From contig DATKYS010000103.1 in the NCBI GenBank assembly GCA_035528375.1, positions 1-39,322 on the forward strand: a DNA stretch of 39,322 bases. The letters are read 5' to 3'. How positions within the stretch are numbered: position 1 is the first letter of the stretch; each line of letters begins with the position of its first letter. The notes under the pieces were generated by a model. That model ran no database searches. It saw only the letters and a list, made by a program, of their open reading frames with translations, and was not told the origin of the DNA. The position numbers were made by a program, and so were the translations under genes. Below, piece after piece: positions 7,295 through 39,009 of the stretch. Origin of the DNA: a bacterium (GTDB lineage Bacteria > RBG-13-66-14).

Positions 7295-9094
7295 TTACCC
7301 GATGCTGATCCTACCCTCGGGGTAGGAGTAGCGGGCTTCGCCGTGCTTCTTGCCGATGGCCAGGCCCAAGGACAGCGGTCCTACGCGGCCGGCGAACATC
7401 AACAGGATGATGATGATCCGCCCGGCGTAGGACAATTCGCCGGTGATGCCCGCGGAGAGCCCCACGGTGCCCCAGGCGGAGACCGTCTCGAAGAGTATGT
7501 CCAGCGGCGGCTGGTCCTCCAGGAGCAGCAGGATGAAAAAGCCCATGACGACGAAGGCGAGACCGCCCACCAGGACGGTCAGCGCCTGTTTGATCACCCC
7601 GGCGGGAATCTCGCGCTTGAACACCTCGACGCGCTTCTTGCCGCGCAGGTTGGCCCAGAAGTTCAGTACGATGACGGCGAAGGTGCTGGTCTTTATACCG
7701 CCGCCGGTGGAGCCCGGGCTGGCGCCGATGAACATCAGCACTATCATGATGAACAGGGTCCCGGCGCTCAGGGCGTCGGTGGGGATGGTGTTGAAGCCGG
7801 CGGTGCGCGTGGTGACGGACTGGAAGTAGCCGGCCATCACCTTCTCGCCCACGTCCATGCCCTGCATGGAGTTACTCCACTCCAGAGGGGTGATGGCGAT
7901 CCAGCCGATGACGAGCAGTATGGCGGTGACGACGAGGACGAGCTTGGTCTGGAGGGTCAGGCGGCTGTGCGGCTGGCCTTTCTTGTGGCGGCGGCGGAAG
8001 CTGGTGAGGTTCATCAGCACGATGAAACCCAGGCCGCCCAGGATGATGAGCGAGGAGATGATGAGCGAGGTGCCGACGGAGCCGGCGTGGGCCTCCATGT
8101 TGTCGGCGTTCAAACTGAAGCCGGCGTTGCAGAAGGCGGAGACGGAGTGGAAGGCCGAGGAGAACAGCAGCTCGCTCTGGTCGGCGTACTTGGGCCCCCA
8201 GGTCTGGTACAGCAGGCCGAATCCGAGGAGCTCGATCAACAGGGTGGCCAGCAACATGTACACGAGGAGTCGTCGGACGGTGGACAGGGCGTCGGCCTCG
8301 TAGGCGCGGGAGAAGAGGGCGACCTCCTTGCGCGCCAGTCGGACTCCCAGGATGGTGGAGAAGAAGGCGGTGAAGCTCATCAGGCCCAGGCCGCCGATCT
8401 GTATGAGCCCCATTATCACGGACTGGCCGAAGCGGGTGAAGTAGCTCCCGGTGTCCACCACGATCAGGCCGGTGACGCAGGTGGCGCTGGTGGCGGTGAA
8501 GAGGGCGTCTATGGGGTGGATGTAGCCGGAGACGGTGGCGCGGGGGAGTGATAAAAGCAGGGTGCCCACGCCGATGACCGCCAGGAACGTCAAGAGGATG
8601 AATCGGACCGGCCGTTGGGCGAGGGCGGCCAGGGTGCGGTTGCCCCGGACGAAGCGGATGATGAGGTTGGCGGCGATGAAGAGCTGGCCCCCCAGCATGG
8701 CCTCGGAGGCCCCGGTGTCGTCGCCGCTCCAGACGCCGGATATCCCTCCCCCGGACTCCGGCGAGCTGACGAGGAGGTAAATGACGTAAACCGCCACCAC
8801 GACGAGCTCGGCCAGGTGCTCCTTGATCCAGGTCAGCCTCTGGTGCGTGAACAGGAGCTGGGTCAGGGGCATGAGGCAGAAGATGAGGATGATGAGCGCC
8901 TGGGCGATGTGGACGATCTGGCGGAGGAAGTCGGAGGGGAAGAAGCCGTACTCGACGATGAAGCCGGCGATGGCGACGACGGCGCAGATGAGGAAGATGC
9001 GGCGCAGCAGCCGGTCCACCCTGGCCCGCAGGGCGGGCGTGAAGGTGAATTTCTGCTGAATCAGCTCCCGGACCGATTCGTTCTGTCGGGTCAT
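7295..9094 (-). CDS. Potassium channel subunit, TrkH/KtrB family
   Basis: This 599-residue integral membrane protein has the four pore loops of the superfamily: TSATCVTGL (about 202-210), FCNAGFS (about 321-327), TRTAGFNTI (about 429-437) and GTVGLSAGI (about 542-550). Each supplies the selectivity-filter glycine. A SPGSTGGGIKT stretch (about 459-469) matches the intramembrane gate region. About 160 N-terminal residues with several extra hydrophobic segments precede the first pore unit, so it is longer than typical KtrB (about 450). It should work with the RCK subunit encoded at 4105-4779. The start is ATG 9094. The downstream neighbour in the same direction is the acquired endonuclease gene, so channel and gate genes are now about 2.5 kb apart. 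Confidence 0.92.
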   Translation of the reverse strand: MTRQNESVRELIQQKFTFTPALRARVDRLLRRIFLICAVVAIAGFIVEYGFFPSDFLRQIVHIAQALIILIFCLMPLTQLLFTHQRLTWIKEHLAELVVVAVYVIYLLVSSPESGGGISGVWSGDDTGASEAMLGGQLFIAANLIIRFVRGNRTLAALAQRPVRFILLTFLAVIGVGTLLLSLPRATVSGYIHPIDALFTATSATCVTGLIVVDTGSYFTRFGQSVIMGLIQIGGLGLMSFTAFFSTILGVRLARKEVALFSRAYEADALSTVRRLLVYMLLATLLIELLGFGLLYQTWGPKYADQSELLFSSAFHSVSAFCNAGFSLNADNMEAHAGSVGTSLIISSLIILGGLGFIVLMNLTSFRRRHKKGQPHSRLTLQTKLVLVVTAILLVIGWIAITPLEWSNSMQGMDVGEKVMAGYFQSVTTRTAGFNTIPTDALSAGTLFIMIVLMFIGASPGSTGGGIKTSTFAVIVLNFWANLRGKKRVEVFKREIPAGVIKQALTVLVGGLAFVVMGFFILLLLEDQPPLDILFETVSAWGTVGLSAGITGELSYAGRIIIILLMFAGRVGPLSLGLAIGKKHGEARYSYPEGRISIG

Positions 9095-31575: not shown

Positions 31576-33486
31576 GTGAGCCCTTCGAGCCCGATGGATT
31601 CCACCTACAAACTACTCAACCGGATTGACGACCCGTCCGATCTCCGGCGGCTCAACCTCTTCGAGCTCGCGGAGCTGGCCGAGGAGCTGCGCCGCTACAT
31701 CATCGAGACGGTGAGCGAGACCGGCGGTCACCTGGCCCCCAGCCTGGGCGCCGTCGAGCTCACCATCGCCCTCCACTACACGCTCGACACGCCCGCCGAC
31801 AAGCTCGTGTGGGACGTGGGCCACCAGGCTTACACCCACAAGGTACTCACCGGCCGGCGGGACCTCCTCCCCACCCTGCGCCAGTACGGCGGCATATCGG
31901 GCTTCCCCAAACCCTCGGAGTCGCCCTACGACACCTACGCCGTGGGGCACGCCTCGACGGCCATCTCCGCCGCGTTGGGGATGGCCCTGACCCGCGAGCA
32001 CAACGGGGGAAAGCACCGCGTGTGCGCCGTGGTCGGTGACGGCTCCCTGTCCGGCGGCATGGCCTTCGAGGCCCTCAACCACGCCGGGCGCTGCAAGATA
32101 CCCTTCCTCGTCGTCCTCAACGACAACAAGATGAGCATCTCCAAGAGCGTGGGGGCTCTGTCGAACTACCTCAACCGGATGATCACCACCCGGAGCTTCC
32201 TCTCGCTGCGCAAGCAGGTCCAGGAGATAGTCAAGAAGATACCCGGCATCGGGATGGGCATCTTCTCCCTGGCGCGCAAGATCGAGGAGGGGCTGAAGAA
32301 CATGGTCACGCCGGGGATGCTCTTCGAGGAGATGGGATTTCTGTACTTCGGTCCCATAGACGGCCACGACCTGCCCAAGCTCGTAGGCGTCCTGAAAACG
32401 GTGCGCGACCTGTCCCAGCCGGTCCTCCTCCACGTGATCACGGTCAAGGGCAAGGGCTACGAGCCGGCGGAGAACGACGCCACCAAGTTCCACGGCCTGG
32501 GGAAATTCGACGCCGCCACCGGCGTGTGCCACGTGAGCGGACCGACGCCCACGTACACGGAGATTTTCGGCTGCACCGTCACCGAGCTGGCGGCCAAGGA
32601 TCCGAACGTGGTGGGCATCACCGCCGCCATGCCCGACGGGACCGGCCTCGACATCCTGGCCGACGCCCTGCCGGACCAGTTCATAGACGTGGGCATCGCC
32701 GAGCAGCACGCGGTGAGCCTGGCCGGGGGGCTGGCCATCTCGGGGATGAAGCCCGTGGTGGCCATCTACTCCACCTTCCTCCAGCGGGCCTACGACCAGA
32801 TGGTGACGGACGTCTGCCTGATGGGACTGCCGGTGCTGTTCGCGGTGGACCGGGGCGGTCTGGTGGGCGCCGACGGCCCGACCCACCACGGATGCTTCGA
32901 CCTGACCTACCTGCGCAGCGCGCCGAACATGACCGTCTGCGCCCCGGCCGACGAGGACGAGCTGCGCCACCTCCTCTACACCGGGTACAAACACCCGGGC
33001 CCCTTCGCCGTGCGCTACCCTCGGGGGAAAGGCACCGGGGTGGACCGAACGCAGCCGCTGCACGAGATTCCCATCGGGAAGGGCGAGCTCCGCCGGGCGG
33101 GGGCCGAGGCCGTGGTCGTGGCCCTGGGCTCCACCGTGATTCCGGCGGTGGAGGCGGCGGAGGCGCTGGCGGAGGGGGGCCGCAGCGTCGCGGTGATCAA
33201 CGCCCGGTGGCTCAAGCCGCTGGACGCGGACCTGATCGTGGAATGGGCGGAGAAAACCGGCCGCGTCCTCACCGTGGAGGAGGGCACCCTCGAGGGCGGC
33301 TTCGGCTCGGCCGTACTGGAGCTTCTGGCGGACCGCGGCCTCCTGGATTCGGGGAAAATAAAACTGAGACGGCTGGGCATCCCCGACCGCTTCGTCACCC
33401 ACGGCACCCAGGAGGAACTGCGAGCCGAGCTTGGCCTGGACGCCCCGGGGATAGTGCGCGCCGTGGAATCCCTTCTGGTCGAATAG
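31576..33486 (+). CDS. dxs: 1-deoxy-D-xylulose-5-phosphate synthase Dxs
   Basis: This thiamine-diphosphate enzyme joins pyruvate and glyceraldehyde 3-phosphate, the first step of the MEP isoprenoid route. The 636-residue protein shows SETGGHLAPSLGAVELTIALHY, VWDVGHQAYTHKVLTGR, the ThDP/metal motif GDGSLSGGMAFEALNHAG...NDNKMS, and the pyrimidine-binding domain with DVGIAEQHAVSLAGGLA, FLQRAYDQMVTDV, DRGGLVGADGPTHHG, then a transketolase C-terminal domain. The start is ambiguous: GTG 31576 gives six more residues than ATG 31594. With a predicted transcript start near 31571, the 5' leader would be very short. Confidence 0.96.
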   Translation: MSPSSPMDSTYKLLNRIDDPSDLRRLNLFELAELAEELRRYIIETVSETGGHLAPSLGAVELTIALHYTLDTPADKLVWDVGHQAYTHKVLTGRRDLLPTLRQYGGISGFPKPSESPYDTYAVGHASTAISAALGMALTREHNGGKHRVCAVVGDGSLSGGMAFEALNHAGRCKIPFLVVLNDNKMSISKSVGALSNYLNRMITTRSFLSLRKQVQEIVKKIPGIGMGIFSLARKIEEGLKNMVTPGMLFEEMGFLYFGPIDGHDLPKLVGVLKTVRDLSQPVLLHVITVKGKGYEPAENDATKFHGLGKFDAATGVCHVSGPTPTYTEIFGCTVTELAAKDPNVVGITAAMPDGTGLDILADALPDQFIDVGIAEQHAVSLAGGLAISGMKPVVAIYSTFLQRAYDQMVTDVCLMGLPVLFAVDRGGLVGADGPTHHGCFDLTYLRSAPNMTVCAPADEDELRHLLYTGYKHPGPFAVRYPRGKGTGVDRTQPLHEIPIGKGELRRAGAEAVVVALGSTVIPAVEAAEALAEGGRSVAVINARWLKPLDADLIVEWAEKTGRVLTVEEGTLEGGFGSAVLELLADRGLLDSGKIKLRRLGIPDRFVTHGTQEELRAELGLDAPGIVRAVESLLVE

Positions 33487-33561: not shown

Positions 33562-33590
33562 TTGAAGCCCGACTCCGGTTGGGCTATAAT
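33562..33590 (+). promoter_or_regulatory. Promoter of the first secreted-array gene
   Basis: TTGAAG, exactly 17 bases, then TATAAT. The spacer holds an imperfect inverted repeat GCCCGAC...GTTGGGC (33567-33584). Confidence 0.7.
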
Positions 33591-33622: not shown

Positions 33623-34156
33623 GTGAAAAAGAGCTGGATTCTCCTGATGACCCTGGCCGCCATCTGCCTGGCCGACGCCGGGGTGCTGGACTACGTCGAG
33701 CCCATCCTCGGCACGCCCGTCGTGGCGACGAGCATGGGCTACGTGACCGGTGTTCTTGCGGAGCGTGGCTGGACCCAGATCGAGGCTGACGAGGAACGGG
33801 TGACGGCCGATTATGTGGGTGACGGCCGCGACGAGCGCCTGACCTTCACCTTCAGCCCGACCGCTTCGACGCCGAGTGAAATCCACCAGGACATCCTCGA
33901 GGTGGAGTACACCCGGGTTCCCTGGCTCGAAATCGAGGGCGCCGTCGAGGGAGTGAGGGTGGAGTTCGACCGGCTAATCGTCGCCTTCGATTACCTCATC
34001 GGACCGGGGATAACGGAAAAGAACGAGGATAAGTGGAGCCACACCTGGGCCGACCGGGACGCGAGCCGGATAGAGCTCATCCTGGCGCCGATGTGGGACA
34101 CCCGGCTGACCGTCTCCGTCAACCTCGTCCCGCTCCGGGAACCGGAGGGTGACTGA
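33623..34156 (+). CDS. Secreted array protein 1 (unknown family)
   Basis: The GTG start at 33623 opens a signal peptide (KKSWILLMTLAAICLADAG). The 177-residue product is the most diverged and longest of six neighbouring secreted proteins. Shared features are a P-I/F-L opening (VEPILGTPVV), a helix ending in LAERGW (residues about 41-50), a GDERLTFTF strand-type segment and a final VSVNLVPLREP strand, which matches the ending of protein 4 (VNIYPLRVP). It has its own promoter. There are no catalytic motifs or lipobox. The mature protein should be periplasmic or extracellular. Confidence 0.75.
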   Translation: MKKSWILLMTLAAICLADAGVLDYVEPILGTPVVATSMGYVTGVLAERGWTQIEADEERVTADYVGDGRDERLTFTFSPTASTPSEIHQDILEVEYTRVPWLEIEGAVEGVRVEFDRLIVAFDYLIGPGITEKNEDKWSHTWADRDASRIELILAPMWDTRLTVSVNLVPLREPEGD

Positions 34157-34375
34157 CGCGTAGTGGGAACCGCACGCCGCCGGACCACCGTATCACGGCC
34201 GGAGGGGCGCGCCGATCCCGGTAGAAAATCGCCTCCACCCCTGGACCGGCTGCGACCCGAGCCCGCATCGCGCGGTTTTACCGAGGACCCGAAAAACGCC
34301 GCGCCACTCAGGGCGATGCTCTACGACAGGGGGAGCTTGTTTCATTAACCGCAGTCATGCCGTGAGGAGTGAACC

Positions 34376-34828
34376 ATGAAGAGCTTCGCATTGATAATCC
34401 TGGCCTTCACCGCTACTCTGGCCGCCAACGTCGTGCCGGTGGACCCCTTCCTCGAAGAAATCCCCTTCGGGGCCGACGCCGAAGCGGTGTCGGCGGCCAT
34501 GAGTGACGCGGGGTATACCGCGACGGGCACGGGGACCTTCGGGCCGGAGTCGTCCAGCGATCTGATAACCGGCGTCCGGGGGGACGAGCGCCTGGAGTAC
34601 CGTTTCAGCGGGGGCTCGCAGACTTTCGCCCGGTATTCTGTCGAGAAGGCTTCTTCGGTTGCGCTCAACGACAAGCTCGACGAGTGGAGCGAGCGCCTGC
34701 AAGAGGTCTGGGGCAATCCGGCCGCGGTGAGTGTGGACGGGTCGAAGCTCTGGATCGTCCCCGGCATGTACACCATCGCGCTGCACATAGAGGGCGCCGG
34801 CCTCCTCGTCACCGTCACCTGGGACTGA
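34376..34828 (+). CDS. Secreted array protein 2 (unknown family)
   Basis: ATG 34376 follows GAGGAG. A 150-residue product with signal KSFALIILAFTATLAANV. Mature part: PVDPFLEEIPFGADAEAVSAAMSDAGY (DPFL box, then helix ending in the GY/GW position), GDERLEYRFSGG, then LDEWSERLQEVWGNPAAV, the second-helix LxxW...GxP box, and a closing GLLVTVTWD strand. The order of parts is the same as in proteins 4 and 6. The 219-nt gap before it holds no gene. Confidence 0.78.
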   Translation: MKSFALIILAFTATLAANVVPVDPFLEEIPFGADAEAVSAAMSDAGYTATGTGTFGPESSSDLITGVRGDERLEYRFSGGSQTFARYSVEKASSVALNDKLDEWSERLQEVWGNPAAVSVDGSKLWIVPGMYTIALHIEGAGLLVTVTWD

Positions 34829-34940
34829 GTCGGGGGTCGGCTCGGACCGCGTCAACCCCGGTGCATCTTCGAGGCCGTAACCAACCGGGGAGACGAACCC
34901 CTCACTTAAATGAGATATCGTGAAGGAAGGGAGCGACGGC

Positions 34941-35450
34941 ATGAGGTTTTTTCCAATAATTATTCTCACCCTTCTCCAATCGGTGACAGCCATGTCATCA
35001 ACCGCGCCCGAAGGGGCAACCGCGGACCGGGAGCCGATCCTCGGTATCAACCCCTACGACAGCTCGTACGACGAGGTGTCGCGGGCCATAGACTCCCAGG
35101 GGTGGCTCATCGCCGCGACACTTTTGGAGGAGCCCGCCGCCTTCCGCCACTCCGAGCTCGGCGACGAGCAGGTCACGGTGTATCTCTCCAACTACGAAGC
35201 GGGCCGGGTGCTCCACCTGTCCTACGGTCTCACGGCGAAGGACGGCTCCGACGAGACCCTCGCCCACCTCGAGGCCGAGTACCGGCGTCTCTGCGAAGGG
35301 TTTGAGGCGCTTCTCGGACCGGGGCTCAAGAGCGGCACGGGGCCCGTCATCGGGTGCTACTGGACCGGAGGGGCCACCGACAGCTACGTGGAGTACCACC
35401 CGCCCGGGGAGGACGGCCCGCAGTTGTCGGTCGAGATATTCTTCGATTGA
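34941..35450 (+). CDS. Secreted array protein 3 (unknown family)
   Basis: ATG 34941 is preferred to an in-frame GTG seven codons earlier because a purine-rich AAGGAAGGGAG precedes it and the signal peptide (RFFPIIILTLLQSVTAM) starts there. The product has about 169 residues. Shared features: REPILGINPYDSSYDEVSRAIDSQGW (opening box plus helix ending in GW), a strand region ending in AGRVLHLSYGL, a second helix LEAEYRRLCEGFEALLGPGL, and the last strand LSVEIFFD. It is more diverged than proteins 2, 4 and 6. Confidence 0.75.
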   Translation: MRFFPIIILTLLQSVTAMSSTAPEGATADREPILGINPYDSSYDEVSRAIDSQGWLIAATLLEEPAAFRHSELGDEQVTVYLSNYEAGRVLHLSYGLTAKDGSDETLAHLEAEYRRLCEGFEALLGPGLKSGTGPVIGCYWTGGATDSYVEYHPPGEDGPQLSVEIFFD

Positions 35451-35498
35451 CCGCCGCCGGCGCCCGCCGGACGAAGGAGCGACAGGGGGGCATCGCCC

Positions 35499-35527
35499 TT
35501 GACCCGGTCGGGGCGCGCGACTATCAT
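35499..35527 (+). promoter_or_regulatory. Promoter of secreted array gene 4
   Basis: TTGACC, exactly 17 bases, then TATCAT, about 45 nt before the gene start. It indicates that at least some array genes are transcribed separately. Confidence 0.65.
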
Positions 35528-35571
35528 CCCAACGCAGCCCACATCGAACCACAACATCAGAAGGTGGAACC

Positions 35572-36066
35572 ATGCGCATCGGTTGGATGATCTTCCTTCC
35601 ACTCTGTCTGGCCACCGTTGCAATGGCCGCAGAAACGCAGACACTGCCCGATCCCTTCCTCGACGGCCTTTCCATCGGGGACACCTCTCTCCAGATCGAA
35701 GCCACACTGAAGGCAAACGGCTGGGAGACGAGCAACGAGTGGTACAACGTCGAAACCGACCCGGTTTTCCGCGTCCGAGGCGAGTCGGGCAACCGGAAGC
35801 TGATCTACGATTACGACGTTTACGGCCGGCTCATCTTCCTGACCTATCTCGAGCAGTGGCCCTCCATCGCGGAGTGCAAAAAGGCGTTCTCGATCTGGCG
35901 TGAGTGGTTGCAGATGTACTACGGCGAACCGATCGAGGTAAACGAGCACGACACGCACTGGTCCAATTCGGGTTACGAGATAAAAATTTACGACAAGACT
36001 TTCATCGCCAGCGAGAGCACGACACCCACCACAATGGTCAACATCTACCCACTCAGGGTGCCCTGA
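35572..36066 (+). CDS. Secreted array protein 4 (unknown family)
   Basis: 164 residues with signal RIGWMIFLPLCLATVAMAA. Mature part: LPDPFLDGLSIGDTSLQIEATLKANGW, then RKLIYDYDVYGRLIFLTYLEQWPS, then FSIWREWLQMYYGEPIEV, HWSNSGYEIKIYD, and VNIYPLRVP. It shows the full set of shared boxes (DPFLxGL, GW, YxYxxxxRL, WxxxLxxxYGxP, HW) and is a good reference member together with protein 6. The coding sequence is somewhat less GC-rich than the others. Confidence 0.8.
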   Translation: MRIGWMIFLPLCLATVAMAAETQTLPDPFLDGLSIGDTSLQIEATLKANGWETSNEWYNVETDPVFRVRGESGNRKLIYDYDVYGRLIFLTYLEQWPSIAECKKAFSIWREWLQMYYGEPIEVNEHDTHWSNSGYEIKIYDKTFIASESTTPTTMVNIYPLRVP

Positions 36067-36195
36067 ACCGGCGCCGACCGCTGGAAAGAAGCGCTACGCC
36101 CGATTAACCAATCCGAGGGGAATACCACAGGTAGCCGGCCCGGTGGAGGGATCGGCGGTGGAAGGTTAAACTTACCTAAACAAAGGGGGTGACAG

Positions 36196-36654
36196 GTGAA
36201 CAGGCTCCTGTTGCTGATCGCGGTCTTTTCCGTTCTCGCTTCGGCGAGCCGCGCCGGGGAGGAGACGCCCGTATATCCTCTGTGCCTCGACCTGTCCATT
36301 GAAACCACCTCGGAAGGGGCGGCCTCTCTGCTTCGGGAAGATGGCTGGGAAGTGTCAACCGCCGAGAACAACCTATCCCTCGACGCCTCGCGGGACGGGG
36401 CGACTCTCACGCTGGGCTGGCTCGACGAGACCTACCTGAGGGACGTGACCTACACCGAGCCCTGGGACGATGCCTGGAAATGCAAAGACCGTTTAGCCGA
36501 GTGGGTGGAATGGTTCAGGCTTTTGAACGGGAAACCCATGGTGGACACGGAGACGTTCCACTACTGGAACATCCCCGGCATGGAGGTGTGGTTCGAAATC
36601 ACCGAAGCCGGGGGTGGCGCGGCCACCCTGACCTGCAGCATCACATTCCTTTAG
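36196..36654 (+). CDS. Secreted array protein 5 (unknown family)
   Basis: A GTG start at 36196 follows AAAGGGGGTGACAG. 152 residues; signal NRLLLLIAVFSVLASASRAG. Mature part: YPLCLDLSIETTSEGAASLLREDGW, LGWLDETYLRDVTYTEPWDD, LAEWVEWFRLLNGKPMV, FHYWNIPGMEVWFEI, and a final TLTCSITFL strand. It keeps the box order but has lost the exact DPFL (PLCL instead). Its stop is 10 nt before protein 6, so those two are co-transcribed. Confidence 0.78.
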   Translation: MNRLLLLIAVFSVLASASRAGEETPVYPLCLDLSIETTSEGAASLLREDGWEVSTAENNLSLDASRDGATLTLGWLDETYLRDVTYTEPWDDAWKCKDRLAEWVEWFRLLNGKPMVDTETFHYWNIPGMEVWFEITEAGGGAATLTCSITFL

Positions 36655-36664
36655 ACGGTAACCC

Positions 36665-37129
36665 ATGCGCTACCTGACGGTGCTTCTCGGCCTTCTGCAG
36701 ACCGCCGCGGTCCTCGGCTACTCCGACCCCTTCCTGCCGGGACTTCCCCTCGGCGCCGATTCAACGGCCGTCTTCGCGGCCCTGGAGGACGCGGGCTGGA
36801 CGGTCGAGGACCACTTCGACAACGCCGACGAGCTCTTCATCATCGAAGGGACTCAGGACGGGCGGCTGCTGCGGTACGCCTACGATTATTCGGAGCGCCT
36901 GGCGGAAGTCGTCTACGCCGAGGCGCACCCCCCCGACGAGACGCGCACCGACGCCTACGGGGCCTGGCTCGACGTTTTAAAAAAGACCTTCGGCGAGCCG
37001 GAGGTCGTGGATTCCTTCCACCACTGGGAGACCGGCGGCTGGTCGGTGGACATCGCGGCGGATGACTTCGATTTCGGCGACGGCTACCCGGCCCCCGTCG
37101 TCCTGATTACGATAACAAAGCTCCCCTAG
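36665..37129 (+). CDS. Secreted array protein 6 (unknown family)
   Basis: 154 residues; signal RYLTVLLGLLQTAAVLG. Mature part: YSDPFLPGLPLGADSTAVFAALEDAGW, LLRYAYDYSERLAEVVYAEAHPPD, YGAWLDVLKKTFGEPEVV, FHHWETGGWSVDIA, and VVLITITKLP. The closest visible relatives are proteins 2 and 4. Its stop overlaps the convergent GNAT gene by 4 bases and no terminator separates them. The predicted fold is beta-alpha-beta-beta-alpha-beta-beta, which recalls BamE/SmpA-like small envelope proteins, but this is only a resemblance. Confidence 0.8.
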   Translation: MRYLTVLLGLLQTAAVLGYSDPFLPGLPLGADSTAVFAALEDAGWTVEDHFDNADELFIIEGTQDGRLLRYAYDYSERLAEVVYAEAHPPDETRTDAYGAWLDVLKKTFGEPEVVDSFHHWETGGWSVDIAADDFDFGDGYPAPVVLITITKLP

Positions 37130-38073
37130 GCCGCGCCCTCCCGTTCCCGCACCAGGCTCAACAGCGACGGCATCGGCTCGAAGCCGAGCTTTTTATTTAT
37201 GGCCAGCATGGCGGCGTTCTCCCGGGCGTTGCCGGTCACCAGCGCCGGCACGCCCCGCTTTTCGTAGAGTTCCATCGCCGCGTACTTGAGCGCCGTGGCG
37301 ATGCCCCGCCCGCGATACTCCGGCACCGTGCCCGTGATGAGCGGCATGGCCGGCGCGTCCGGGCCGCCGGGGAGCATCAGCCCCGTCACGCCTACGAATT
37401 CCTCACCGTCCAGGGCCACGACGTAGGTGTCGGTGTCCATCGGGGGACCGGCGAACGCTTTTTTCCACTCCTCGAAGTCCTGCTTGCGGTAGGGCACGGC
37501 GTGGGGCACGTCGGCCTCCGAGTCCTCGAAGATGCGCCACAGCCGCCGTTCCTTATCATTGTCGTTGATTTCGGCGTAGAGCCGGATTACAATTCCCTGT
37601 AGTTCGACGCGCCGCAGACGCTCGGAGTAATCCTCCGGCCTTTTATACCGGGCGAGCTCCAGTCGGAGGAAGAGGTCCTCGTGGGCGACCGCGAAACCGC
37701 GCCGCCCGAGCATCGCCAGCGCCGCCTCCCGGTCCGCCCACGTCTGCGCCATGAGCTTTTTCCAGGCGAGAAACGCGAGTTGGCTTTCCAGCAGGTTCCA
37801 CAGCGTGCGGCCGTGGCCCCGGCCCCGGTAATCCGGGTGGACGAAACAGCCGACCCGGAACGTCCCCGGCTCGGCGAAGAAGCCGCCGGAGATGGAGACG
37901 GAGGCCATGAGGCGGCCGTCCTGTTCGCCGATGAAGCGCATCAGGAGCCGTTCCGGGGGTATGTTATCCTCACCGTGTCGGGCGTTGGAAAGCGACGCGG
38001 GGAGGGGGTTCTCCAGGTTGGAGAGCTCCACCAGCGCGGCCAGGTCGTCGTCCTGATACCGGCGGATGCGCAT
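37126..38073 (-). CDS. Tandem-GNAT acetyltransferase-like protein
   Basis: A 315-residue protein with two GNAT folds. The N-terminal copy (residues 1-150) shows MRIRRYQDDDLAALVELSN, FRVGCFVHPDYRGRGHGRTLW with the acetyl-CoA loop RGRGHG, and MLGRRGFAV. The C-terminal copy (residues about 155-315) shows TYVVALDGEEFVGVTGL, ITGTVPEYRGRGIATALKYAAM with a canonical QxxGxG-like RGRGIA, and NAAMLAINKKLGFEP. The substrate is unknown; similar double-GNAT proteins include mycothiol synthase and antibiotic-modifying enzymes, but no diagnostic residues were seen. It converges on the secreted array with a 4-base overlap. Confidence 0.88.
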   Translation of the reverse strand: MRIRRYQDDDLAALVELSNLENPLPASLSNARHGEDNIPPERLLMRFIGEQDGRLMASVSISGGFFAEPGTFRVGCFVHPDYRGRGHGRTLWNLLESQLAFLAWKKLMAQTWADREAALAMLGRRGFAVAHEDLFLRLELARYKRPEDYSERLRRVELQGIVIRLYAEINDNDKERRLWRIFEDSEADVPHAVPYRKQDFEEWKKAFAGPPMDTDTYVVALDGEEFVGVTGLMLPGGPDAPAMPLITGTVPEYRGRGIATALKYAAMELYEKRGVPALVTGNARENAAMLAINKKLGFEPMPSLLSLVREREGAA

Positions 38074-38172: not shown

Positions 38173-39009
38173 ATGGACATAATATTCAACAGCATAGCAA
38201 TTGGTTTAAGTCTTATAGCGATATTTATAGCTGTATCTGTTTATTCCAGTACAAAACGCAGTACATTTTTTATCTATTTGGCAAAGGAATATAGAGAACT
38301 TACAAAAGATTTATACAGTCGATATTCTGAAATTTATAATCTTATTGAACAATATGAAAGACAACTGGATACTGGTGGTGAAATAGAAATTCGAATAAAA
38401 AGGAATGAATCCATAAACAACGTCGTATCATTTATTGAAGATAAAGAATTTCAATACAGACGTATTATAAGTAACCTATATATCAAACATTATGACATCC
38501 CATTTATCATACCAGAATGTTTTCCAATAACATACGAAGTACTCACAAAATATATAGATAGCATATATGAAATTAAAAGTGATCTCTATAAAAAAGCAAA
38601 AACTGAAACCCATTTATACAACATTTCCGCTGCATATAGAGCTAATGCTTTATATAAAATACATGGGAACAGAAATTTACATGATAAATGTGTAATAATA
38701 GGAAACAATATATCTTTAAATGCAAATATTTATTACTACCTAATTGATACTTTCATCACCATAATAAATAACCCTCTATCGACTTGTTACAAGGAGATGA
38801 AGAGGAATATTGTAAAAGAAAGAAAACAAAGTAAAAAAACAAAAAATATTGATACCAATGAACTGTTGGACCTGTACTGCAAATTATATGATTATGATGA
38901 AGAAAACTCAAAAAACCTTAAAAGTTATTTCTCAGTAAAAGAAATTACCGATAAATATGTACCTATTAAACATTTATTTATTGCCCCACAGAAAAACACA
39001 AAATCCTAA
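38173..39009 (+). CDS. AT-rich orphan membrane-anchored protein
   Basis: The 278-residue product has one N-terminal transmembrane helix (residues about 7-25: SIAIGLSLIAIFIAVSVYS), then a Lys/Asn/Ile/Tyr-rich, mostly helical soluble region with YRELTKDLYSRYSEIYNLIEQYERQL and a long charged middle (KEMKRNIVKERKQSKKTK). No known family is recognised. GC is roughly 30% by eye against more than 60% for neighbours, so recent horizontal transfer is likely. It sits beside the start of a dTDP-sugar gene. Phage-defence and surface-polysaccharide loci often carry such genes, but no function can be assigned. Confidence 0.7.
   Translation: MDIIFNSIAIGLSLIAIFIAVSVYSSTKRSTFFIYLAKEYRELTKDLYSRYSEIYNLIEQYERQLDTGGEIEIRIKRNESINNVVSFIEDKEFQYRRIISNLYIKHYDIPFIIPECFPITYEVLTKYIDSIYEIKSDLYKKAKTETHLYNISAAYRANALYKIHGNRNLHDKCVIIGNNISLNANIYYYLIDTFITIINNPLSTCYKEMKRNIVKERKQSKKTKNIDTNELLDLYCKLYDYDEENSKNLKSYFSVKEITDKYVPIKHLFIAPQKNTKS

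Follow-up and report, generated by a model that had tools for sequence, protein, structure and literature searches.

Positions 33623–37129 of the window, by which we mean the whole 39,322-base stretch of DNA analysed here (one entire contig, C103, of a 2.63 Mb genome from the uncultured phylum Candidatus Coatesbacteria), carry six plus-strand ORFs whose products are proteins of 150–177 amino acids with export signals, and these six are copies of a single small exported protein that have since diverged. The reading that we favour, with a probability of roughly 0.4, is that they form an old and still changing tandem family of Sec-exported, probably periplasmic, proteins that would have a two-unit BLIP-like fold and bind partner proteins, with the individual copies specialised for different partners.

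Two branches, A and B, make up the array. Member 1 (33623–34156; 177 amino acids, GTG start) belongs to branch B, the profile of which it matches with an E-value of 1e-68, and member 2 (34376–34828; 150 amino acids) belongs to branch A; their orthologues have identities of 77 and 75% respectively in genome G001 and of 58 and 56% in G003. Member 3, again of branch B, has an alternative GTG start at 34920 giving a 176-amino-acid form, but the ATG at 34941 (34941–35450; 169 amino acids) is the better start, because a normal signal peptide results and GGAAGGGAG precedes the ATG; its orthologues are 79% (G001) and 66% (G003) identical. The remaining three belong to branch A: member 4 (35572–36066; 164 amino acids), with orthologues in G002, G003 and, as two copies, G001; member 5 (36196–36654; 152 amino acids, GTG start), with orthologue identities of 84% in G002 and 55% in G003; and member 6 (36665–37129; 154 amino acids), 64% identical with its G001 orthologue. 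Genes 5 and 6 are separated by 10 nt, as in the first-pass annotation. Promoter-like sites, recognized from sequence only, lie at 33562 and 35499 with 10 of 12 matches each, and the region has three such sites compared with 0.9±0.8 in shuffled sequence.

When the whole genome was searched with member 6, members 4, 2 and 5 were found with E-values of 1.8e-14, 2.9e-7 and 1.5e-4 respectively, and nothing else at E≤1, a resemblance well beyond chance. Iterated profiles of the mature parts, from which the signal peptides had been removed, link all six members; these data unite the ‘divergent small secreted paralogues’ of the first-pass annotation as one family and rule out signal peptides as the sole source of the similarity. 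Against all ORFs of at least 80 amino acids in 12 sequences, every match of these profiles lay inside such arrays, which serves as a control against profile drift. A single comparison of members 1 with 3 gives a match at E=3e-4, and a maximum-likelihood tree splits branch A (2, 4, 5 and 6) from branch B (1 and 3) with support of 99/97, so that of the earlier grouping of 2, 4 and 6 against 1, 3 and 5, the divergence of 1 and 3 stands, but member 5 sits with 2, 4 and 6. Profile–profile comparison of the two branches gave a probability of 96.9% (E=1.8e-10, 152 columns); without signal peptides the first halves align at 94.5%, whereas the second halves taken alone gave no alignment. No internal sequence repeat was detected within either branch (hhalign below 1%).

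As each of the six members groups in the tree with its orthologues from sister genomes, the six lineages predate the genus. There are also younger events: G001 carries member 4 twice, some array copies are truncated in both G001 and G003, and the G003 orthologue of member 3 contains a TGA, so that the array shows copy gain, loss and decay among relatives; the ‘layered duplication’ proposed at first pass is supported by both the old lineages and these newer duplicates. Frame and order are preserved in related genomes and orthologue dN/dS values are 0.22–0.61, indicating that the six genes are real and that their proteins are maintained by selection; every dN/dS value was below 1, and positive selection over whole genes was not seen. 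Between G000 and G001, dN was 0.12–0.27 for the array genes compared with 0.04 for dxs, so that the array genes change at approximately three to seven times the rate of dxs. The exposed strand face varies more than the inner face, the faces having been assigned by hydrophobicity, and as any fold would show this we have set it aside as evidence. In G001 (L021:6476 and 7550–7735), a short CGAGCGAAGCGAGCTATGCCCCCGGC-like repeat occurs in frame inside the member-1 orthologue (PSEASYAPGEPSYAPGK) and again ahead of the member-3 orthologue; no such repeat is present in the window.

Profiles of branches A and B detected members in each of the seven genomes analysed from one Coatesbacteria family, but in none of seven other Coatesbacteria genomes and in none of approximately 370 other bacterial genomes, the large scans having scored the best nine first-look candidates per genome, from which remote relatives could escape. 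So far, then, the protein family is confined to one family of the phylum, as the suggestion of a lineage-specific envelope family anticipated. A phage or plasmid origin was rejected, as single members or member-4 orthologues used as queries found no relatives in phage, plasmid and viral collections.

The array lies directly downstream of dxs (1-deoxy-D-xylulose-5-phosphate synthase; 31594–33486, plus strand, TIGR00204) in all five readable genomes (G000, G001, G003, G004 and G006), and on its right is a convergent GNAT acetyltransferase gene (37126–38073, minus strand, PF00583), which adjoins array members in G000, G001 and G006. In addition, murJ precedes dxs in G000, G001, G004 and G006, and an rfbB-like gene is found on the array contig in G001, G003 and G004; several of these neighbours were named from how their sequences begin, with no family search behind the name. 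In the phylum's other four families, dxs adjoins tlyA-like genes, with ispA-like and xseB-like genes also nearby in two of the four (all named by sequence start), and no array is within reach of dxs. Because dxs has other neighbours and no array in these families, the array and the present dxs location are features of one Coatesbacteria family, the neighbours of dxs having changed within the phylum, with the tlyA-like (and ispA/xseB-like) set elsewhere and murJ and the array here. No candidate partner gene was found near the array, the neighbours being mostly housekeeping genes.

An ORF of 278 amino acids at 38173–39009, with 27% G+C compared with 63.5% for the window and an N-terminal hydrophobic stretch, had no match in Pfam or PADLOC and looks recently acquired; near the corresponding place G004 encodes a different, 257-amino-acid, membrane-type protein (L025:5441–6211). 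A YhhN-family membrane protein gene (PF07947, E=1.4e-29) adjoins array members in G006 (L026:1676–2362), as does a YhhN-like gene, named by sequence start, in G004 (L025:8282–9013); in the window there is none beside the array.

All six N-termini have a brief positively charged segment followed by a hydrophobic stretch and then a cleavage region of small residues, N-termini in relatives with complete starts being likewise like signal peptides, and none of the six has a lipobox cysteine at the end of the signal peptide. The host genome has five Omp85 matches, which indicates a diderm, and the periplasm is therefore a likelier site than secretion, leaving the ‘secreted effector’ of the first-pass annotation without support. 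Soluble periplasmic proteins, acidic ones with pI values of 4.1–4.6 (calculated for the array proteins alone), would thus be the likeliest products of the array, given Omp85 in the genome and signal peptides lacking a lipobox. The G001 orthologue of member 6 (L022:1095–1694) is extended at the N-terminus by a segment that carries another hydrophobic stretch (IFFGLYLGGLMAALLS) ahead of the conserved domain and on that account may be membrane-anchored; a similar hydrophobic stretch is present in G002 (L023, near 2950).

Searches of the array proteins against Pfam, NCBIfam, PHROGs and PADLOC, and against the sequences of solved structures (PDB), gave nothing significant; family-library matches all fell below cut-off, so that the earlier description as having ‘no recognised family’ still holds. 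None of the Pfam families of the BLIP-like superfamily was matched significantly, an anti-phage defence identity was rejected for want of a PADLOC match, and a PepSY_2 match of one relative (E=0.022) was discarded because it covers mainly the signal peptide. Members 1 and 3 resemble DUF6301 (PF19818) over approximately 100 residues, with scores of 18.2 and 19.2 bits against a curated cut-off of 27.2, whereas members 2, 4, 5 and 6 have no match at all; as the scores are under the cut-off and the number of hits over 386 genomes is at chance level, we reject DUF6301 as the family and regard the resemblance as a lead.

Membership in BamE (PF04355) or DUF3862 (PF12978) was likewise rejected at the sequence level, since hhalign against 13 units gave probabilities of 0.5–1.8%, several of the short alignments falling on the helix and G-x-P turn; the host genome has no BamE/DUF3862 match. 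BamE was undetected in the seven genomes of the array-bearing family and also in most other genomes. Short proteins with a membrane anchor and a weak, below-cut-off DUF3862/BamE-like unit are encoded in three genomes from a sister family within Coatesbacteria (L082, L084 and L085, around 1500).

AlphaFold2 was run with family alignments on members 4 and 3, giving models with mean pLDDT values of 86.6 and 85.0 and pTM values of 0.78 and 0.77 respectively. Member 4 is predicted to consist of a helix, four strands, a helix, a two-residue bridge and three strands, and member 3 of a helix, a two-residue bridge, three strands, a helix and four strands, so the two models agree in the order of their elements, a helix and four strands occurring twice if each bridge is counted as a strand. 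In Foldseek searches, the best solved match of member 4 was 3d4e, with a probability of 0.97 over 157 of 162 residues (E=0.009, TM-score 0.35), and no BLIP, PepSY or DUF2874 structure was among its top 50; member 3 matched 1vr8 at a probability of 0.85 and the BLIP-type entries 3gmx, 3gmv and 3gmw at 0.33–0.41. For both members, all PDB fold matches had E-values above 0.001, and the remaining weak ones were scattered over PUR repeats, EspG3, START and others. Among predicted viral proteins, the best fold matches of member 4 are to the phage proteins A0A6J5MCF6 and A0A8S5T817 (E<0.001, TM-scores 0.48–0.55), although these are uncharacterized and have only 10–13% identity with it.

The entry 3d4e is a putative BLIP, and the BLIP-like superfamily comprises BLIP, PepSY, DUF2874, SmpA_OmlA and DUF3192, periplasmic, exported proteins with four-strand units and helices, often in tandem, which are suspected inhibitors (PMC2954215). 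Given that a helix and four strands occur twice in the models and that 3d4e is the best solved match, we consider it rather probable that the array proteins have a BLIP-like fold. The loose BamE/SmpA resemblance noted at first pass becomes more specific without being proved: the predicted fold resembles a superfamily to which BamE belongs, and at the sequence level the BamE/DUF3862 tests were negative. A different, new two-layer α/β fold with an unrelated role, the likeness to BLIP being a chance match of elements, would be consistent with the low TM-scores, the PDB E-values and the spread of the weak matches; we think this unlikely, though worth keeping in view, as 3d4e is matched at 0.97 over nearly the full length, branch B independently matches BLIP-type entries, and export and size agree.

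On the reading that we favour, the array would be an ancient tandem family, still changing, of Sec-exported acidic proteins in which a helix-plus-strands unit occurs twice to give a BLIP-like fold, and each copy would bind, and restrain or assist, a partner protein of the envelope, by analogy with the superfamily. We infer, rather than observe, the periplasmic site, protein binding, inhibition and partner specialisation: binding is suggested by superfamily members of known role, which work by binding other proteins (PMC2954215), and inhibition of an envelope enzyme would by the same analogy be the leading case. As the copies have remained adjacent since before the genus, they should differ in task, most simply by having diverged to serve different partners. 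A stronger version, in which the array is a lineage-specific tandem repertoire and each BLIP-like copy has its own target, be it an enzyme of the envelope or a foreign protein, seems to us doubtful.

The same fold might instead serve envelope assembly, the copies being scaffold proteins with a BamE-like role that aid Omp85-dependent assembly or attach to peptidoglycan or to proteins of the outer membrane. BamE (SmpA_OmlA) is of the same fold superfamily (PMC2954215), and the genome has its five Omp85 matches while BamE is undetected in the seven array-family genomes, but its absence tells little because most other genomes lack a detectable BamE too; moreover, BamE is a lipoprotein and the array proteins have no lipobox cysteine, no sequence relationship links them, and a rapidly changing array of several copies is not what one expects of a core assembly factor. 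We hold such a role to be unlikely. Quite improbable is an immunity-like role for these small proteins within a contact-dependent or polymorphic toxin system, the array being maintained against changing toxins. Immunity genes typically occur as arrays of diverged paralogues, and the sub-threshold DUF6301 matches of members 1 and 3 point the same way, yet those matches are at chance level over many genomes and DUF6301 is itself uncharacterized; no toxin gene adjoins the array, and a constant place after dxs, purifying selection and orthologues preserved across the genus all argue against this role. We give marginally less credence still to periplasmic carriers of small ligands, e.g. lipids or isoprenoids, tied to the dxs neighbour: the position after dxs is constant and lipid-binding proteins are among the weak fold matches, but these have probabilities of approximately 0.2 or less, dxs works in the cytoplasm, and other Coatesbacteria carry dxs without the array.

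The array defines an unnamed protein family limited to one family of an uncultured phylum, with a constant location, duplications that are old and proteins that change rapidly, the proposed fold of which is testable. If the BLIP-like fold is correct, the array would amount to naturally diverged binders sharing a scaffold, useful for asking how such inhibitors switch partner, and in the repertoire version it would be multi-specific; if the fold is wrong, it is an ordinary orphan family.

Among known systems, BamE (SmpA_OmlA) and DUF3862 resemble the array proteins in having a helix that ends in a G-x-P-like turn, after which strands follow, but BamE is a lipoprotein of one unit, whereas the array proteins have two predicted units and no lipobox. 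From 3d4e of S. mutans, BVU2987/DUF2874 (PF11396) and BLIP (PF07467) the array proteins differ in having no detectable sequence relationship (with a TM-score of 0.35 to 3d4e), no visible internal repeat and a tandem arrangement of diverged copies. They share with these proteins a signal peptide, a mature size of 125–165 amino acids and, as far as the order of elements in the models suggests, perhaps two units of a helix with antiparallel strands, as well as an acidic character with BVU2987, which has an acidic concave face (PMC2954215), and the array is probably a new branch of the BLIP-like envelope proteins.
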